Positions 8,191-14,366 of a stretch of 64,000 nt of DNA are shown here, piece by piece. Location of the stretch: contig JBFMCL010000013.1 in assembly GCA_040754395.1 (NCBI GenBank), positions 1-64,000 of the forward strand. The letters run 5' to 3'. This DNA comes from Nitrospirota bacterium (GTDB lineage Bacteria; Nitrospirota; Thermodesulfovibrionia; Thermodesulfovibrionales; SM23-35). Both the position numbers and the translations under genes were made by a program. The notes under the pieces were generated by a model, which made no database searches, was not told the DNA's origin, and saw only the letters and a program-made list of their open reading frames with translations. The first letter of the stretch is position 1; each line of letters begins with the position of its first letter.

Positions 8191-8877
8191 TTAATGACCT
8201 TTCGCCTTGGAAATTGCAGGAAGCTCTACCATTTCGACTTTGCCGGTCGAGAGCATGTATTCACCGCCGACGATCTTCAATTTTCCTGCATCGGCGAGAT
8301 GCCTGATGATGCTGCTGTTCTTCATGATGTCCTTGTATACGTTCTTTACGTTTTCATGGATTGCGATCTCCATGATCTCATCCTTGGACCCGCCCTTTTT
8401 CTTCGCAGCTGCAGCAGCAGGCTGTATCTTTTTGACTATTGCACCGATGTTGCCCTCAGGTTTTCCTTTTGCATCGATCGTTGCTCCGACAGCACCGCAC
8501 TTTTCATGTCCGAGAATGACCAGCAGGGGGGAATGAAGGTGCTCGGCTGCATATTCAATACTGCCAAGACCTATCGGGTCAACAACATTGCCTGCAACCC
8601 TGATTACGAAGAGATCGCCAAGCCCCTGGTCAAACAGCAGTTCAGGCGCGACCCTTGAATCCGAGCACGTAACGACAATCGCGAACGGCTTCTGCCCTTT
8701 TAGCAATTCCTTCCTCTTAGTGTCCCCGATGTCTTTCTGGCCCAGACTCCCCTCGACATATCTCTTGTTGCCATCCATCAGTTTCTGCAGCGCTTCATCG
8801 CCGGCGCTTCCTGCGAACACGAAACCTGAAAAAACGGCGACCATAAGTAAGGCAGACAAAACTTTCAAGAATTTCAT
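8191..8877 (-). CDS. Secreted beta-class carbonic anhydrase
   Basis: A 228-residue protein that interconverts CO2 and bicarbonate. Residues 1-22 are a clear signal peptide ending VFA, so it is periplasmic. Zinc ligands and the Asp-Arg dyad are present: CSDSR, then HEKCGA (Cys, Asp, His, Cys). EYAAEHLHSPLLVILGHEKC matches the family. AGGAGG lies 7 nt before the ATG and a strong terminator follows. It sits 57 nt downstream of rnfB on the same strand, with only a weak hairpin between, so read-through from the rnf operon is possible. A poly-Ala/Lys loop (AAAAAKKKGG) is unusual. Confidence 0.92.
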   Translation of the reverse strand: MKFLKVLSALLMVAVFSGFVFAGSAGDEALQKLMDGNKRYVEGSLGQKDIGDTKRKELLKGQKPFAIVVTCSDSRVAPELLFDQGLGDLFVIRVAGNVVDPIGLGSIEYAAEHLHSPLLVILGHEKCGAVGATIDAKGKPEGNIGAIVKKIQPAAAAAKKKGGSKDEIMEIAIHENVKNVYKDIMKNSSIIRHLADAGKLKIVGGEYMLSTGKVEMVELPAISKAKGH

Positions 8878-8934
8878 ACATCTCCTCCTAAAATTGATCT
8901 AAAGACCCTCGAAGAGGGGCCGAAAAAAAAGTTG

Positions 8935-10092
8935 CTAGGCAGCTTTCGTCTTTTTCTTTGCGGCAGAAGCGAATACCTGTGATGCGTTAAAGGTACCGTC
9001 TATCGCCTGAACAGGACATTTTGCCGTGCATATGCCGCACCCTATGCATTTGCCCTGATCGATAGAATGTTTCTTTTTATGCTCACCCGAAGCCGCGTTT
9101 GCCGGGCAGACTTTTGCGCAGATTCTGCAGCCGATACAGTTGTCCAGAATGAATGCCTTCGGTCTTGCCGGGATAAAATCACTGATGGCATCAGTAGGGC
9201 AACTGGGCACGCAGAGCCCGCATACCGTGCATTTTTTCGAGTCTATCCCTGAAAGGTGCTGTGCAACTGAAGGGGCATCAAAGGGACAGACCTTCACGCA
9301 GATGCCGCACGCGATGCAGCCAGTCTGGCAGTTTTTTCGGGTGTCGCCACCGGTGTCCCTCGAGTGGCAGGCAACAAGCACCTGACGGGAAGCGGGGAGT
9401 ACCTCAATGACCCTCGTAGGGCATGCTGCCTCGCATTTCCCGCACCCTGTACATTTCCCTATGTCAACGTAGGGGAGATGGTCATCCGTCATGGTGATCG
9501 CATCGAAAGGACATACCCTTGAACATGTCCCGTACCCCAGGCAGCCGTATCTGCACGACTTGTCACCGCCTCCTGCGAGGATGACGGCCCTGCAGTCCTG
9601 GACTCCTTCATAGAGGTATTTTTTCAGGGATTTGCTCCATCCTCCTTTGCACAGTATTCTCGCATAATGAGGTTCCCTTGTTTCGGCTTTTTTACCTGTA
9701 ATGAGGGCGACTGCTTCACATGTCCTTTCCCCTCCGGGTATGCAGAGATTCGGCGGAATCTCCGGATTGCAGACGACTGCTTCAGCATACTGTTCGCACC
9801 CTGCGAACCCGCAGGCACCTCAATGTGCATGCGCGAGCACATCCATCACTTTTTCGACGCGCGGGTCAATCCTGACGGAAAACTTCTTTGCGGTTAATGC
9901 AAGGCTTATCCCGAATACGACCCCGACTCCCCCGAGAAAGAGCAGGGTGTACTTGATCAGGGGGAGGAGTTCGACATGCTCCCGCGCTTCAATCCCTCCG
10001 CCCACACCGGCGACAGGAATGAGGAGACCGGATACGTCGGCGAACCTGAGCAGGTCGGCGAGATCACTGATCAGTTCCAGAAATTCAGTCAT
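8935..10092 (-). CDS. rnfB: RnfB ferredoxin-type subunit with a predicted selenocysteine (UGA) at residue 91
   Basis: RnfB accepts electrons from ferredoxin in the Rnf ion-pumping complex. The frame runs 386 codons but contains a TGA at 9820-9822. Before it: one membrane helix (about 45-66) and SVRIDPRVEKVMDVLAHAH. After it, with no other stop: GACGFAGCEQYAEAVVC, then LCIPGGERTCEAV, a Cys-rich linker, and five or six 4Fe-4S motifs (such as CTGCGKCEAACP and CIGCGICTAKCP). Homologues have Cys-Gly-x-Cys-Gly at this point, so TGA replaces exactly the first cluster-ligating Cys. A SECIS-like hairpin follows. I infer Sec insertion; a nonsense mutation with a separate C-terminal product from ATG 9492 is the alternative, though that ATG has no ribosome site. 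Last gene of rnfCDGEAB. Confidence 0.8.
9788..9813 (-). promoter_or_regulatory. Candidate bacterial SECIS hairpin in rnfB
   Basis: On the minus strand GTTCGCA (9808-9802) pairs perfectly over 7 bp with TGCGAAC (9798-9792) around the loop GGG. A lower helix of three pairs extends it past a small internal loop. The loop begins 19 nt after the TGA, the same distance as the apical loop in E. coli fdhF. The loop is all G, as bacterial SECIS models require near its 5' side. A competing smaller hairpin (CCTGCG/CGCAGG, loop GGTT) lies nearer the TGA. Confidence 0.6.
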
Positions 10093-10115: not shown

Positions 10116-10703
10116 TTAAATTTTAATTAATCCTGAAAAACCTGTGAACGCAAGTGCGATCAACCCCGTAACAATAAATGCGATTGGGGTTCCCCTGAAA
10201 GGCGCCGGGACATCCGCAAGTTCAAGTTTTTCCCTGATACTCGCCATGATTATCAGTGCCAGAGAAAAACCTGCACCCGAGCCGAAAGCAAAGGCGAGGC
10301 TCTCGATAAAACTGTACTTCTCTCCTGCATTGATAAGCGGGACCGCGAGAATAATGCAGTTGGTGGAAATCAGCGCAAGGTAAATACCAAGCTTATAGTA
10401 AAGACCGGGCGAGATCTTGCGCATAACTGTATCGGAAGCCTGAACAAATCCCGCAACGATGCCAATGAATATGATAATCTTCAGAAAGGTGATATCGAGG
10501 GGGACCATAACGTAGGTAAAAATAAGCCAGCTCAGCGCGGCGCTTATCATCATGACGGAAGTGAACGTGATGCTCATGCCGACCGCAGTTTCCATTTTCC
10601 GCGAAACGCCGAAAAAAATGCACAGGCCGAGAAAACGGGTAAAGACAAAGTTGTTGATCAGTGAAGCAGCGACGACGAGTTCGAAGAGTTTAGAGAATTC
10701 CAT
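10116..10703 (-). CDS. rnfA: RnfA membrane subunit
   Basis: A 195-residue integral membrane protein with six predicted helices. NNFVFTRFLGLCIFFGVSRK and STNCIILAVPL carry the half-channel Cys residues that bind an intramembrane Fe-S centre between RnfA and RnfE. EKYSFIESLAFAFGSGAGFSL is a family signature. Length equals the norm of about 190. It lies between rnfE and rnfB in the standard order. Function: part of the ion-translocating core, homologous to NqrE. Confidence 0.95.
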   Translation of the reverse strand: MEFSKLFELVVAASLINNFVFTRFLGLCIFFGVSRKMETAVGMSITFTSVMMISAALSWLIFTYVMVPLDITFLKIIIFIGIVAGFVQASDTVMRKISPGLYYKLGIYLALISTNCIILAVPLINAGEKYSFIESLAFAFGSGAGFSLALIIMASIREKLELADVPAPFRGTPIAFIVTGLIALAFTGFSGLIKI

Positions 10704-10764: not shown

Positions 10765-11379
10765 TCATTGTCTTTTTTCGTATTTCAGACTTATCCAGTT
10801 AAAAAATCCCATGAGTATGCCGACGGCAAAAAATCCGCCTGCAGGCAGCACAAGTATCAAAAGGGGTTGTGCATGGAGGATCTCAACGCCCCACAAGGAC
10901 CCTTTGCCGAGAAGTTCCCTGAAAAAACTTATAATGCAGAGGGCGAACATAAAACCGAGCCCCATGCCGATACCGTCGAACATGGAAGGCATGAAAGTGT
11001 TCTTGCTCGCAAACATCTCTGCACGTGCAAGTATCGATGCAAAGGCGACGATCAGTTGGATGTACAGCCCCATCTGCCTGTAAGCCTCGGGTGCGAAAGC
11101 GGCCATTGACATATCTGTAACCGTTACCCATCCTGAGATGATGAGCATATAGATAGGAAGGCGTATCCTGGGGTGTATGAAGCTGCGCATCAGCGAGATG
11201 GTAATATTGACCATCACCTGCACAAACAGTACCGCAAACCCCATCAGGAAACCGTTTCTCAGGTTGTTTGTTACCGCAATGGAAGGGCATAGGCTGAGTG
11301 CAAGCCTGAAGATCGTGTTTTCCCTGAATATTCCGTTCTTGATGAGGACGGCGTAATCAGTCGCTTCTGTCTTTTCCAT
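10765..11379 (-). CDS. rnfE: RnfE membrane subunit
   Basis: A 204-residue membrane protein homologous to NqrD, with six helices and paired in inverted topology with RnfA. Signatures are FRLALSLCPSIAVTNNLRNG and MPSMFDGIGMGLGF. The ATG at 11379 is chosen because AAGGTG lies just ahead; a GTG four codons upstream (11391) is also open. The start overlaps the 3' end of rnfG by 23 bp, indicating translational coupling. Confidence 0.93.
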   Translation of the reverse strand: MEKTEATDYAVLIKNGIFRENTIFRLALSLCPSIAVTNNLRNGFLMGFAVLFVQVMVNITISLMRSFIHPRIRLPIYMLIISGWVTVTDMSMAAFAPEAYRQMGLYIQLIVAFASILARAEMFASKNTFMPSMFDGIGMGLGFMFALCIISFFRELLGKGSLWGVEILHAQPLLILVLPAGGFFAVGILMGFFNWISLKYEKRQ

Positions 11380-11947
11380 GAGCACCTTCACTTGTAACAG
11401 CCTTTATGAGGAAATCCAGGCCATTTCTTACCGCATCCTCGGAGACAGCCCTGCTTGAAATGGTTGCCCCTGAGATTGCCTGTATATAATAAGAAGTGTC
11501 CTTTTTCAACACCTTTAAATGGTCAATGTCCTTGCCGGAAAACTGGCTTCTGAAGCTTGATGACTCAATCTCATCCCCCAGGCCGGGAGTCTCTGCATGT
11601 CCGAGAATACTGATCGTTCTGACCCGGAAATCCCGGTCGACTGCAAAGAGCGTGTCAATATAGCTTGAATATCCCTTGCCATAGGACTGGACGACGTATC
11701 CGATTACTGCGCCATTTTTTTTTGCGATAAAGTACTCCGCATTTTTTTGATGGATAGTCCAGTCCCCCAGTTTTTCGATAGAATCCGCCTCCGGTACGAG
11801 CGTCTTGAGTGCTACTTCCTTTGCGAGCACCGCGTTCCTGTATATGATTGGCGAAGTTCTGGCATACACCAGGGCAAGGATAAGGCCCCCTGCAAGGTAG
11901 ATGACTACCAGGTTCAGGGTGATCTTCCATATGTCCTTTCCTGTCAC
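11357..11947 (-). CDS. rnfG: RnfG, covalent-FMN subunit
   Basis: A 196-residue protein with one N-terminal membrane helix (about 9-28) and a periplasmic FMN-binding domain. The flavinylation motif SGATISSRAV is intact; its Thr carries FMN by phosphoester, attached by an ApbE transferase not in this window. GHAETPGLGDEIES is the other family signature. It passes electrons between RnfD and the membrane core. Overlaps rnfE by 23 bp. Confidence 0.94.
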   Translation of the reverse strand: MTGKDIWKITLNLVVIYLAGGLILALVYARTSPIIYRNAVLAKEVALKTLVPEADSIEKLGDWTIHQKNAEYFIAKKNGAVIGYVVQSYGKGYSSYIDTLFAVDRDFRVRTISILGHAETPGLGDEIESSSFRSQFSGKDIDHLKVLKKDTSYYIQAISGATISSRAVSEDAVRNGLDFLIKAVTSEGAHGKDRSD

Positions 11948-11961
11948 GTACCGTCACCTCT

Positions 11962-12957
11962 TCATTTCTTAAGTGTTCCGAATACTTTTGATTTAACCCC
12001 ACTGTCAATGAGCGGCGCAAAAGAGTTCATGATGAGAATTGCGAACATGACACCTTCAGGATAGCCTCCCTTCAGGCGTATGAGCATGGTGAGAAACCCG
12101 CATCCGATGCCGAAAAGAATTTGACCGCTCTTCACGGAAGGACTTGTGACATAATCAGTGGCCATATAGAACGCACCCAGAATCATACCGCCGCTCAGAA
12201 GGTGGAACAGAGGATCTCCGGTAAAAAGAGAACCTTTGCCGCCGAATATCCAGGCGAGCAGTGTTGCGCTGCCGAGGAATGAAAAAGGAATATGCCAGGT
12301 GATATACCCCCTGTGGAAGAGAAATGCCGCACCGGCCAGAAGCGCGGCCGCAGAAGTTTCGCCGATTGATCCTGCCCGGTGTCCGATGAAAAGCTGCCAG
12401 TAGAGGTTTCCCTGACTTCCGAAGACCTCAATAAGCCTTGAAAAACCTTCTTCTTTCATGATACCAAGCGGAGTCGCAGACGTCTGCGCATCAAACGATA
12501 CAAAGGATGCGGCAGGCGCATTCCAGACCGTCATGAGTTTAGGAAAGGAAATCAGCAGGAAAGCCCTTCCGATGAGAGCGGGGTTGAATATGTTGTATCC
12601 GAGTCCTCCGAAGAGTTGTTTGGTAATAACAACGGCGACAAACGACCCCGTAACCGGAATATAGAAGGGAACCGAGGGAGGCAGGTTCAGTCCGAGCAAA
12701 AGTCCTGTCAGGAACGCGCTTCCGTCACTGACGGTTGAAGGTTTTTTCAGCGCCTTCCGGTAGAGATATTCGGACAGCACTGAAGCCAGGATACAGACGG
12801 CGACAGTAAGTATTGCCCTTAATCCGAAGAAATACGCACCCATGATCATCGCCGGGAGAAGCGCAATTGACACAGTCCACATGATCCTGCCGGTTGTTTC
12901 GTCACTGCGGATGTGCGGACTGACGGAAACAAAAAGCGGGTGTTTTGTTAATTCCAC
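11962..12957 (-). CDS. rnfD: RnfD, flavin-binding membrane subunit
   Basis: A 331-residue membrane protein homologous to NqrB. The covalent FMN site is TSATPLGIMK and GGLGYNIFNPALIGRAFLL is the conserved core. The start chosen is GTG 12957 (VELTKHPLFVSVSPHIR), since GGAGG lies 5 nt ahead; a TTG at 12984 opens the same frame without a ribosome site. About 100 nt separate it from rnfC; that gap contains a possible hairpin (12994-13008 with 13032-13046: AAGAAG and GATGGG against their complements). Confidence 0.95.
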   Translation of the reverse strand: MELTKHPLFVSVSPHIRSDETTGRIMWTVSIALLPAMIMGAYFFGLRAILTVAVCILASVLSEYLYRKALKKPSTVSDGSAFLTGLLLGLNLPPSVPFYIPVTGSFVAVVITKQLFGGLGYNIFNPALIGRAFLLISFPKLMTVWNAPAASFVSFDAQTSATPLGIMKEEGFSRLIEVFGSQGNLYWQLFIGHRAGSIGETSAAALLAGAAFLFHRGYITWHIPFSFLGSATLLAWIFGGKGSLFTGDPLFHLLSGGMILGAFYMATDYVTSPSVKSGQILFGIGCGFLTMLIRLKGGYPEGVMFAILIMNSFAPLIDSGVKSKVFGTLKK

Positions 12958-13058
12958 GAATCCTCCGTCATGAGTATTGCGCAAAACGAAAGTAAGAAGT
13001 ATGATGGGTAATCAGAACAGTCATACATTTTCCCATCGCGCTTCTTCGTGCACCTTCG

Positions 13059-14366
13059 CTATGGTTTTACCTGTGATTTCGCAAGCCTTATCAGCTGCAC
13101 GATAGGCCGTTTAGAAGGGCACACGAACGCACATGAGCCACACTCAAAGCAATCAAAGAGGTTATATTCCTTTGCACCTTCATAGAAGCCCTTTTCTGCA
13201 TAGATACTGAGCATCGAGGGCATCAGACCCATCGGGCACACATCAATGCATCTCCCGCACCGAATGCAGGGTCCGAATTCCTCAGCGTGAAAGAACCCTC
13301 CCTCCGGTAACACAACAATTCCTGAAGTGCCTTTTGTTACGGGGACATCGAGGGAAGAAACTGCAAATCCCATCATGGGACCTCCTGAGATGACCTTTAT
13401 CTCTTCATCCTTTAGTCCCCCGCATTCTCGAATAAGGTCTGATATCAGAGTCCCCACCGGGACCATAAGGTTTTTTGGCTCTGCGATGCCTTCTCCTGTT
13501 ACGGTGATTACCCTTTCTATCAGAGGTTTGCCGTACCTAACTGCTTCATAAACGGCAAAGGATGTGCTGACGTTCTGTACCACGACCTTAATATCCATGG
13601 GGAGCGCTCTTGGTGGCACCTCCCTGCCGGTTATCGACTTAATGAGCATCTTTTCCGCACCCTGAGGGTACCTTGCGGGAAGGGCACACACTTCGATAGT
13701 GCGGGAATCACCCGCTGCCTTCTTCATCGCTGCAAGCGCTTCCGGTTTATTGTCCTCTATCCCTACAAATCCCCTGCTCACCGCCAGTACCTTCATCAGA
13801 ATAACCAGACCCTCAATGATTTCCCGGGGCTTTTCGATCATCAGCCTGTAATCTCCGGTTAAATACGGTTCACACTCAGCACCGTTCAGGATCACGGTAT
13901 CGACAGGTTTTTCCTTCGGCGGAGACAGCTTTACTATTGTGGGAAATGCCGCACCTCCCATGCCGACAATGCCGGCATCCTTTATTTTTTCCCTGATCTG
14001 ATCGGGAGAGAGACTTATATAGTCCGGATTATCCCTGAGAATGGACCATTCCTCTCTGCCGTCACTTTCGATAACAACAGACATGACCATTCTCCCCATA
14101 GCATTGGGAAATTCTCCGATTGCGATTACCCTGCCGGAGACTGACGAGTGAACAGGTGCTGACACAAAACCGGTGGCTTCACCTATCAACTGCCCTTTCT
14201 TTACCTCCTGATCGATCACAACCGCTGGTTTGCAAGGTGCTCCCAGATGCTGGCTCAGGGGAATGACGACCTTCGGCGGGAGAGTAACAGGAGTAATTGG
14301 CCTGTGAGCAGAAAGTTCTTTTTTATCAGGAGGGTGTATCCCACCCCTGAAAAGAGAGATAGCCAT
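13059..14366 (-). CDS. rnfC: RnfC, NADH/flavin and Fe-S subunit
   Basis: A 435-residue peripheral subunit that exchanges electrons with NAD. It has an N-terminal barrel-sandwich domain (HLGAPCKPAVVIDQEVKKGQ), a Rossmann-like NADH/FMN region (GIVGMGGAAFPT, LNGAECEPYLTGD), an SLBB-like segment, and two 4Fe-4S motifs at the C-terminus (CIRCGRCIDVCP, CFECGSCAFVCP). Length is the short form without the long C-terminal extension of enterobacteria. First gene of the operon, with its own promoter after hemH. GGAG lies 8 nt before the ATG. Confidence 0.95.
   Translation of the reverse strand: MAISLFRGGIHPPDKKELSAHRPITPVTLPPKVVIPLSQHLGAPCKPAVVIDQEVKKGQLIGEATGFVSAPVHSSVSGRVIAIGEFPNAMGRMVMSVVIESDGREEWSILRDNPDYISLSPDQIREKIKDAGIVGMGGAAFPTIVKLSPPKEKPVDTVILNGAECEPYLTGDYRLMIEKPREIIEGLVILMKVLAVSRGFVGIEDNKPEALAAMKKAAGDSRTIEVCALPARYPQGAEKMLIKSITGREVPPRALPMDIKVVVQNVSTSFAVYEAVRYGKPLIERVITVTGEGIAEPKNLMVPVGTLISDLIRECGGLKDEEIKVISGGPMMGFAVSSLDVPVTKGTSGIVVLPEGGFFHAEEFGPCIRCGRCIDVCPMGLMPSMLSIYAEKGFYEGAKEYNLFDCFECGSCAFVCPSKRPIVQLIRLAKSQVKP

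Follow-up and report, generated by a model that had tools for sequence, protein, structure and literature searches.

The rnfB gene that closes an rnfCDGEAB operon in a Nitrospirota bacterium is very probably a selenoprotein gene, in which a single in-frame UGA would be read by SelB as selenocysteine (Sec) at residue 91 and this residue would provide one of the four ligands of the [4Fe-4S] cluster known as B8. The gene lies in a 64,000-nucleotide stretch of DNA (contig JBFMCL010000013.1, positions 1 to 64,000), referred to here as the window. A selenoprotein RnfB had already been proposed in a first-pass annotation of the window, and that proposal is now supported by the conservation of the UGA, by a hairpin behind it, by an intact downstream reading frame under selection, and by the presence in the genome of tRNA-Sec and a Sec-type selD. 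Selenium ligation of the cluster is a strong inference from homology. The evidence for the selenoprotein, along with the alternatives to it, is laid out below.

The rnf operon and its UGA-containing rnfB

The operon occupies positions 14366 to 8935 on the minus strand, with rnfB as its final gene (Table 1). Four of the other subunits (rnfC, rnfD, rnfG, and rnfE) passed curated NCBIfam cut-offs; rnfA fell slightly below that of its top match, yet no family gave it a better score. The rnfB frame contains one internal TGA and reads ...DVLAHAH-TGA-GACGFAGCEQYAEAV..., and the earlier claim that it is recognizable as RnfB on both sides of this codon is borne out by the read-through product, for which the top NCBIfam match is NF005503, a model named "RnfABCDGE type electron transport complex subunit B" (290 bits against a cut-off of 252), with TIGR01944 matching as well. 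The protein begins with a transmembrane helix, read off the sequence, followed by a B8-type FeS domain (PF04060, residues 88-119) and a polyferredoxin domain in which Pfam finds several ferredoxin clusters. Its identification as RnfB is therefore based on a model match above cut-off, on the combination of membrane helix, FeS domain, and ferredoxin clusters, and on an operon shared with rnfC, D, G, E, and A. Immediately downstream of rnfB is a carbonic anhydrase-like gene (window 8191-8877, minus strand) that scores below the NF011765 cut-off.

Table 1. Positions in the window of the rnf genes, the in-frame UGA, and the predicted hairpin
Feature	Position	Strand	Description
rnfB	8935..10092	-	385 aa read through one UGA; predicted Sec91
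rnfA	10116..10703	-	Top match TIGR01943, 220.6 bits, slightly below the cut-off of 229.3
rnfE	10765..11391	-	NF009070, above cut-off
rnfG	11357..11947	-	TIGR01947, above cut-off
rnfD	11962..12984	-	TIGR01946, above cut-off
rnfC	13059..14366	-	TIGR01945, above cut-off
In-frame UGA (predicted Sec91)	9820..9822	-	First Cys position of CGxCGFxGC
SECIS-like hairpin, 17 nt	9792..9808	-	GTTCGCA-GGG-TGCGAAC, 7 Watson-Crick pairs, 11 nt past the UGA

By sequence, RnfB matches two solved structures, those of Acetobacterium woodii (9eri_B, 2.7e-78) and C. tetanomorphum (7zc6_B), and residue 91 aligns in both with the first Cys of the CGxCGxxGC motif, which in A. woodii is a ligand of the B8 domain. Just as the first reading of the sequence had it, only this first cluster Cys is changed, since the other three ligand Cys are retained, and the N-terminal cluster has a full set of four ligands if Sec is counted among them.

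Conservation of the UGA and of the frame behind it

Comparison with relatives, suggested at the outset as a search for Cys/TGA swaps, returned exactly such a pattern. Of 138 genomes in the order that gave a match to rnfB, four and no more carry a TGA in the gene, namely, this genome (G000) and G164, G178, and G300, which are separately sampled assemblies belonging to two other genera of the family. All four have the TGA at the identical codon and the identical perfect 7-bp stem, and Cys forms are found elsewhere. A pattern scan for U-G-x-C-G-[FY]-x-G-C across 84,980 species yielded 64 stretches, 43 of which passed a strict rnfB filter, and one more, L172, is an rnfB truncated where its contig ends. 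Three of these ~44 genes are from Nitrospirota and the remainder (~40) are of the Desulfobacterota type, from sulfate-reducer-like bacteria, while ~20 of the 64 stretches represent chance matches or other reading frames, for example in Belnapia. The recurrent off-target in Belnapia and related Acetobacteraceae (L116, L124, L129, L130, L158, and L165) is a short conserved frame ending DRTP-TGA-GGCGYSGCPW that is not rnfB. A motif scan of viral contigs gave no match. Desulfosarcina alkanivorans and Desulfonema magnum, whose chromosomes are complete, carry a TGA-rnfB that likewise ends an rnf operon, and from these two Desulfobacterota loci the order rnfCDGEAB appears common to both phyla; NF005503 is the top match for the D. 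alkanivorans protein as well. Of 389 genomes sampled from the class to which D. alkanivorans belongs, 24 matched; the gene has one TGA in 15 of them and none in the other 9.

The reading frame is open beyond the UGA in all 45 TGA genes, mostly for 230-295 codons, most of the shorter frames running into the end of a contig or locus, and the other three ligand Cys are retained in every one of them. Between the window and G300, 54% of third codon positions behind the UGA differ compared with 15% of first and second positions, and the corresponding values for G164 and G178 are 36% and 7%. The initial estimate of some 300 intact downstream codons is thus close to the 294-295 open codons found, which are under purifying selection, and the degraded rnfB in close relatives that would have spoken against a selenoprotein was looked for and not seen.

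The hairpin behind the UGA

Downstream of the UGA, an 11-nt spacer (9819-9809) leads into a predicted SECIS-type hairpin with arms at 9808-9802 and 9798-9792 and a GGG apical loop at 9801-9799. The perfect 7-bp stem is as first described, but it begins 12 nt after the TGA rather than 19, the latter being the position of the GGG loop. The hairpin is also less surprising than had been supposed, because the codons for F-A-G-C-E are partly self-complementary: synonymous recoding of the window gene according to its codon usage produced a hairpin at least as good in 7.5% of cases (p 0.075), and the corresponding figures for G164, G178, and G300 are 1.2, 0.4, and 3.9%. The argument that a random stop would be unlikely at this site therefore holds for the position of the TGA, which recurs in the three related genomes and in ~40 Desulfobacterota-type species, but it overstated the improbability of the hairpin.

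Across the rnfB genes from the scan, a 17-nt hairpin is found 11 nt after the TGA, and its average strength in TGA genes exceeds that in Cys genes. Mean dG17 is -4.3 for 45 TGA genes and -1.5 for 44 Cys genes, the median synonymous-recoding p is 0.16 compared with 0.69, and the difference between the two sets (Mann-Whitney, 2.5e-8) is to be taken as indicative, given that the rows share ancestry and are not independent. The Cys forms of Nitrospirota mostly have Tyr in place of Phe, which breaks the stem, and the outermost stem pair switches from G-C to C-G between the phyla, amounting to one compensatory change. The case for an RNA signal is weakest in the FPGCE group of Desulfobacterota, whose stem is imperfect (5-6 of 7 pairs) with a weak dG17 and whose Cys genes look alike, and in one YPGCE gene that has only 4 stem pairs. 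One further gene, the rnfB of G219 (L025 / L089), has a Cys codon, yet its hairpin is still near-perfect (GTTTGCA-GGT-TGCGAAC) and it clusters with the TGA genes; it may have reverted recently from Sec to Cys, its SECIS surviving as a fossil, or else be a precursor.

Selenocysteine machinery

A search for selA, selB, selC, and selD had been proposed as a check, with the absence of sel genes counting against the selenoprotein, and its outcome was mixed. The genome encodes tRNA-Sec(UCA) (C1:231988-232081) and, on contig C11, a selD that itself has UGA as its active-site codon (CSG-UGA-ASKF) with the frame open afterwards, whereas selA and selB were not found in the assembly, which is 99.96% complete. 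In relatives, selA and selB adjoin tRNA-Sec, as on contig C89 of G299, where tRNA-Sec is at 36.5 kb, selA at 38.1 kb, and selB at 45.5 kb, and it is at this place that the present assembly breaks: contig C1 stops 1.3 kb past tRNA-Sec, inside a DDE transposase gene. The final 124 nt of C1 are identical to the start of C32 (L070 8151-9357; L020 2-125), and this points to a repeat-induced assembly break at an insertion sequence rather than a deletion. The absence of selA and selB is therefore probably an assembly gap. Of 21 Desulfobacterota genomes with TGA-rnfB that were searched, 20 have a SelB that scores above cut-off, and the last has a C-terminal piece of SelB.

The genome also harbors a tRNASec-shaped tRNA with a GCA anticodon, of the selC* tRNACys type (G000:C16:80860-80959; L071, about 8861-8960), at a contig end beside 5S/23S rRNA-like sequence. 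It is overlooked by ARAGORN, and similar tRNAs are widespread in the order. A second selB lies immediately downstream of such a tRNA in G164 (L072), G178 (L076), G282 (L083), G300 (L084), and G284 (L080 and L081), all Nitrospirota belonging to this family, a pairing described for Syntrophobacterales and Desulfobacterales (PMC7609411). In G304, a 92-nt tRNA called as tRNA-SeC (L085, G304:C279, 1787-1878) has a UCA anticodon and sits just 5' of a divergent selB, and this could be a selC* tRNACys that reads UGA.

Alternative readings of the UGA

The presence of selC*-like tRNAs raises the question of whether the rnfB UGA is decoded as Cys, by a selC* tRNACys acting through SelB or a SelB* paralogue at the same hairpin, either fully or under selenium shortage. 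Such tRNAs are known from Nitrospirae and Desulfobacterales, where some Desulfobacterales forms have a UCA anticodon and a dedicated CysRS (PMC7609411), and a case of UGA recoding by Cys that involves SelB is reported in a paper cited in PMC8124441. This genome has a selC*-like tRNA, and those of G164, G178, and G300 include one that adjoins a second selB. However, a selC* with a UCA anticodon and a SelB* partner was not found in any of the four TGA-rnfB Nitrospirota: the anticodon is GCA in four of four, which would read UGC and UGU but not UGA, and their UCA tRNA is the canonical tRNA-Sec. Moreover, G282 and G284 have selC* and selB* yet carry a Cys-codon rnfB, and most TGA-rnfB Desulfobacterota have only a single SelB. 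The described selC* tRNACys/SelB* systems (PMC7609411) resemble what is seen here in the tRNASec-shaped GCA tRNA, in their occurrence in Nitrospirae, and in the second selB nearby in some relatives, but they read Cys codons and would not be the decoder of the rnfB UGA. Sec is preferred over Cys because the GCA anticodon does not read UGA, and we regard decoding as Cys as very improbable.

The TGA might instead be a true stop, leaving either a recent pseudogene or a split gene, in which a 90-aa N-terminal product is followed by a ferredoxin part with its own start, once selA and selB had been lost through an IS insertion. The missing selA and selB, and a tRNA-Sec so close to a contig end within a transposase gene, would fit such a history. 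Against it, the TGA and perfect hairpin are repeated in three genomes that have selA and/or selB, the downstream frame is intact and under purifying selection, selD retains its UGA and open frame, and the recurrence of the C1 end at the start of C32 indicates a break caused by a repeat and not a deletion, so that the chance of a true stop seems to us equally slight. A TGC or TGT miscalled as TGA can be given practically no weight, as the codon is repeated in three independent Nitrospirota assemblies and in many Desulfobacterota, two complete chromosomes included. Pseudogene, split gene, and sequencing error were all dismissed on conservation, leaving Sec insertion as the preferred reading.

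Evolution of Sec and Cys forms

In the rnfB tree, the branch that splits Nitrospirota from Desulfobacterota is long and has full support, Cys forms lie on either side of it, and a transfer of TGA-rnfB from Desulfobacterota is for these reasons unsupported. The well-supported branches imply at least five Sec/Cys changes, and the tree as a whole requires eight. The best tree for Nitrospirota alone has two changes, and a single TGA clade is not rejected (p-AU 0.48). Closely related Sec and Cys forms exist: the TGA-rnfB of D. alkanivorans and a Cys homologue share 91% identity, and among Desulfosarcinaceae, two Sec/Cys pairs show 90% (L153 and L202) and 99% (L177 and L204) identity after the site. 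D. alkanivorans with its 91% Cys homologue, and G000/G300 with G219, are natural pairs for defining the effect of selenium on an iron-sulfur cluster.

Proposed role of Sec91 and comparison with known systems

Rnf is an ion-pumping respiratory complex of bacteria and one of the main energy-conserving enzymes of anaerobes. For selenoprotein synthesis, SelB and Sec-tRNA-Sec(UCA) would bind the hairpin at +12 to +28 past the UGA and insert Sec at residue 91. By homology, Sec91 together with Cys94, Cys99, and Cys116 would ligate the lone [4Fe-4S] cluster of the mobile, ferredoxin-like N-terminal domain of RnfB, and this cluster, B8, would connect the polyferredoxin chain of RnfB with the [2Fe-2S] cluster of RnfA/E in the membrane, relaying electrons between the two and gating ion pumping. 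More speculatively, the most plausible effect of a selenolate ligand would be to tune B8 in its potential or reorganisation, or to ease repair of the cluster when it is transiently oxidised. Taken as a whole, we consider it moderately likely that this is a genuine Rnf complex with a selenolate on the [4Fe-4S] cluster that gates its pump, acquired repeatedly among anaerobes of two phyla and serving to tune electron entry into RnfA/E or to protect B8. A practical consequence is that TGA-rnfB genes are at risk of truncated or broken annotation.

The protein belongs to a selenoprotein family that has already been listed in two reviews (PMC9312934, PMC13188914), as "Fe-S cluster domain-containing protein" (PRK07118/NF005503) with the motif UxxC, and that is credited there to a 2008 metagenome study. 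The window RnfB matches the same NCBIfam model above cut-off and has the same UxxC, but the listed family is not named RnfB and is linked neither to the Rnf complex nor to B8; "rnf" is absent from the texts of PMC9312934 and PMC13188914 and from the main text of the 2008 study, and our literature search found no paper that treats the NF005503 selenoprotein as an Rnf subunit or reports a member from Nitrospirota. The novelty is accordingly limited to the occurrence in Nitrospirota and the explicit placement in an Rnf operon. One of the example proteins in those lists, ABC78902.1, is from Syntrophus. The list of PMC5029168 has an entry named RnfC, and we believe this entry to be PrdC.

As for the RNA signal, the hairpin can be compared with the SECIS of Escherichia coli fdhF, which has an 11-nt spacer and a 17-nt upper hairpin. 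The rnfB hairpin shares this spacer, this length, and a G-rich loop, but it differs in sequence and in host protein, that of fdhF being formate dehydrogenase H, where Sec ligates Mo or W and not an Fe-S cluster. The closest functional counterpart is the Na+-translocating Rnf of A. woodii (PDB 9ERI-9ERL), whose RnfB is alignable over residues 51-366 and which has the same six subunits as are encoded in the operon here. There, the mobile domain made up of RnfB residues 30-100 harbors a single [4Fe-4S] cluster, B8, which receives electrons from the RnfB chain and donates them to the [2Fe-2S] cluster of RnfA/E in the membrane; mutants in the B8 Cys do not grow autotrophically, the purified variants lack ferredoxin-dependent NAD+ reduction, and reduction of B8 has been proposed as the trigger of ion pumping (PMC11889175). 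The A. woodii protein has Cys, not Sec, at the B8 ligand position, and it is at this very position that the Nitrospirota RnfB is predicted to carry selenium.
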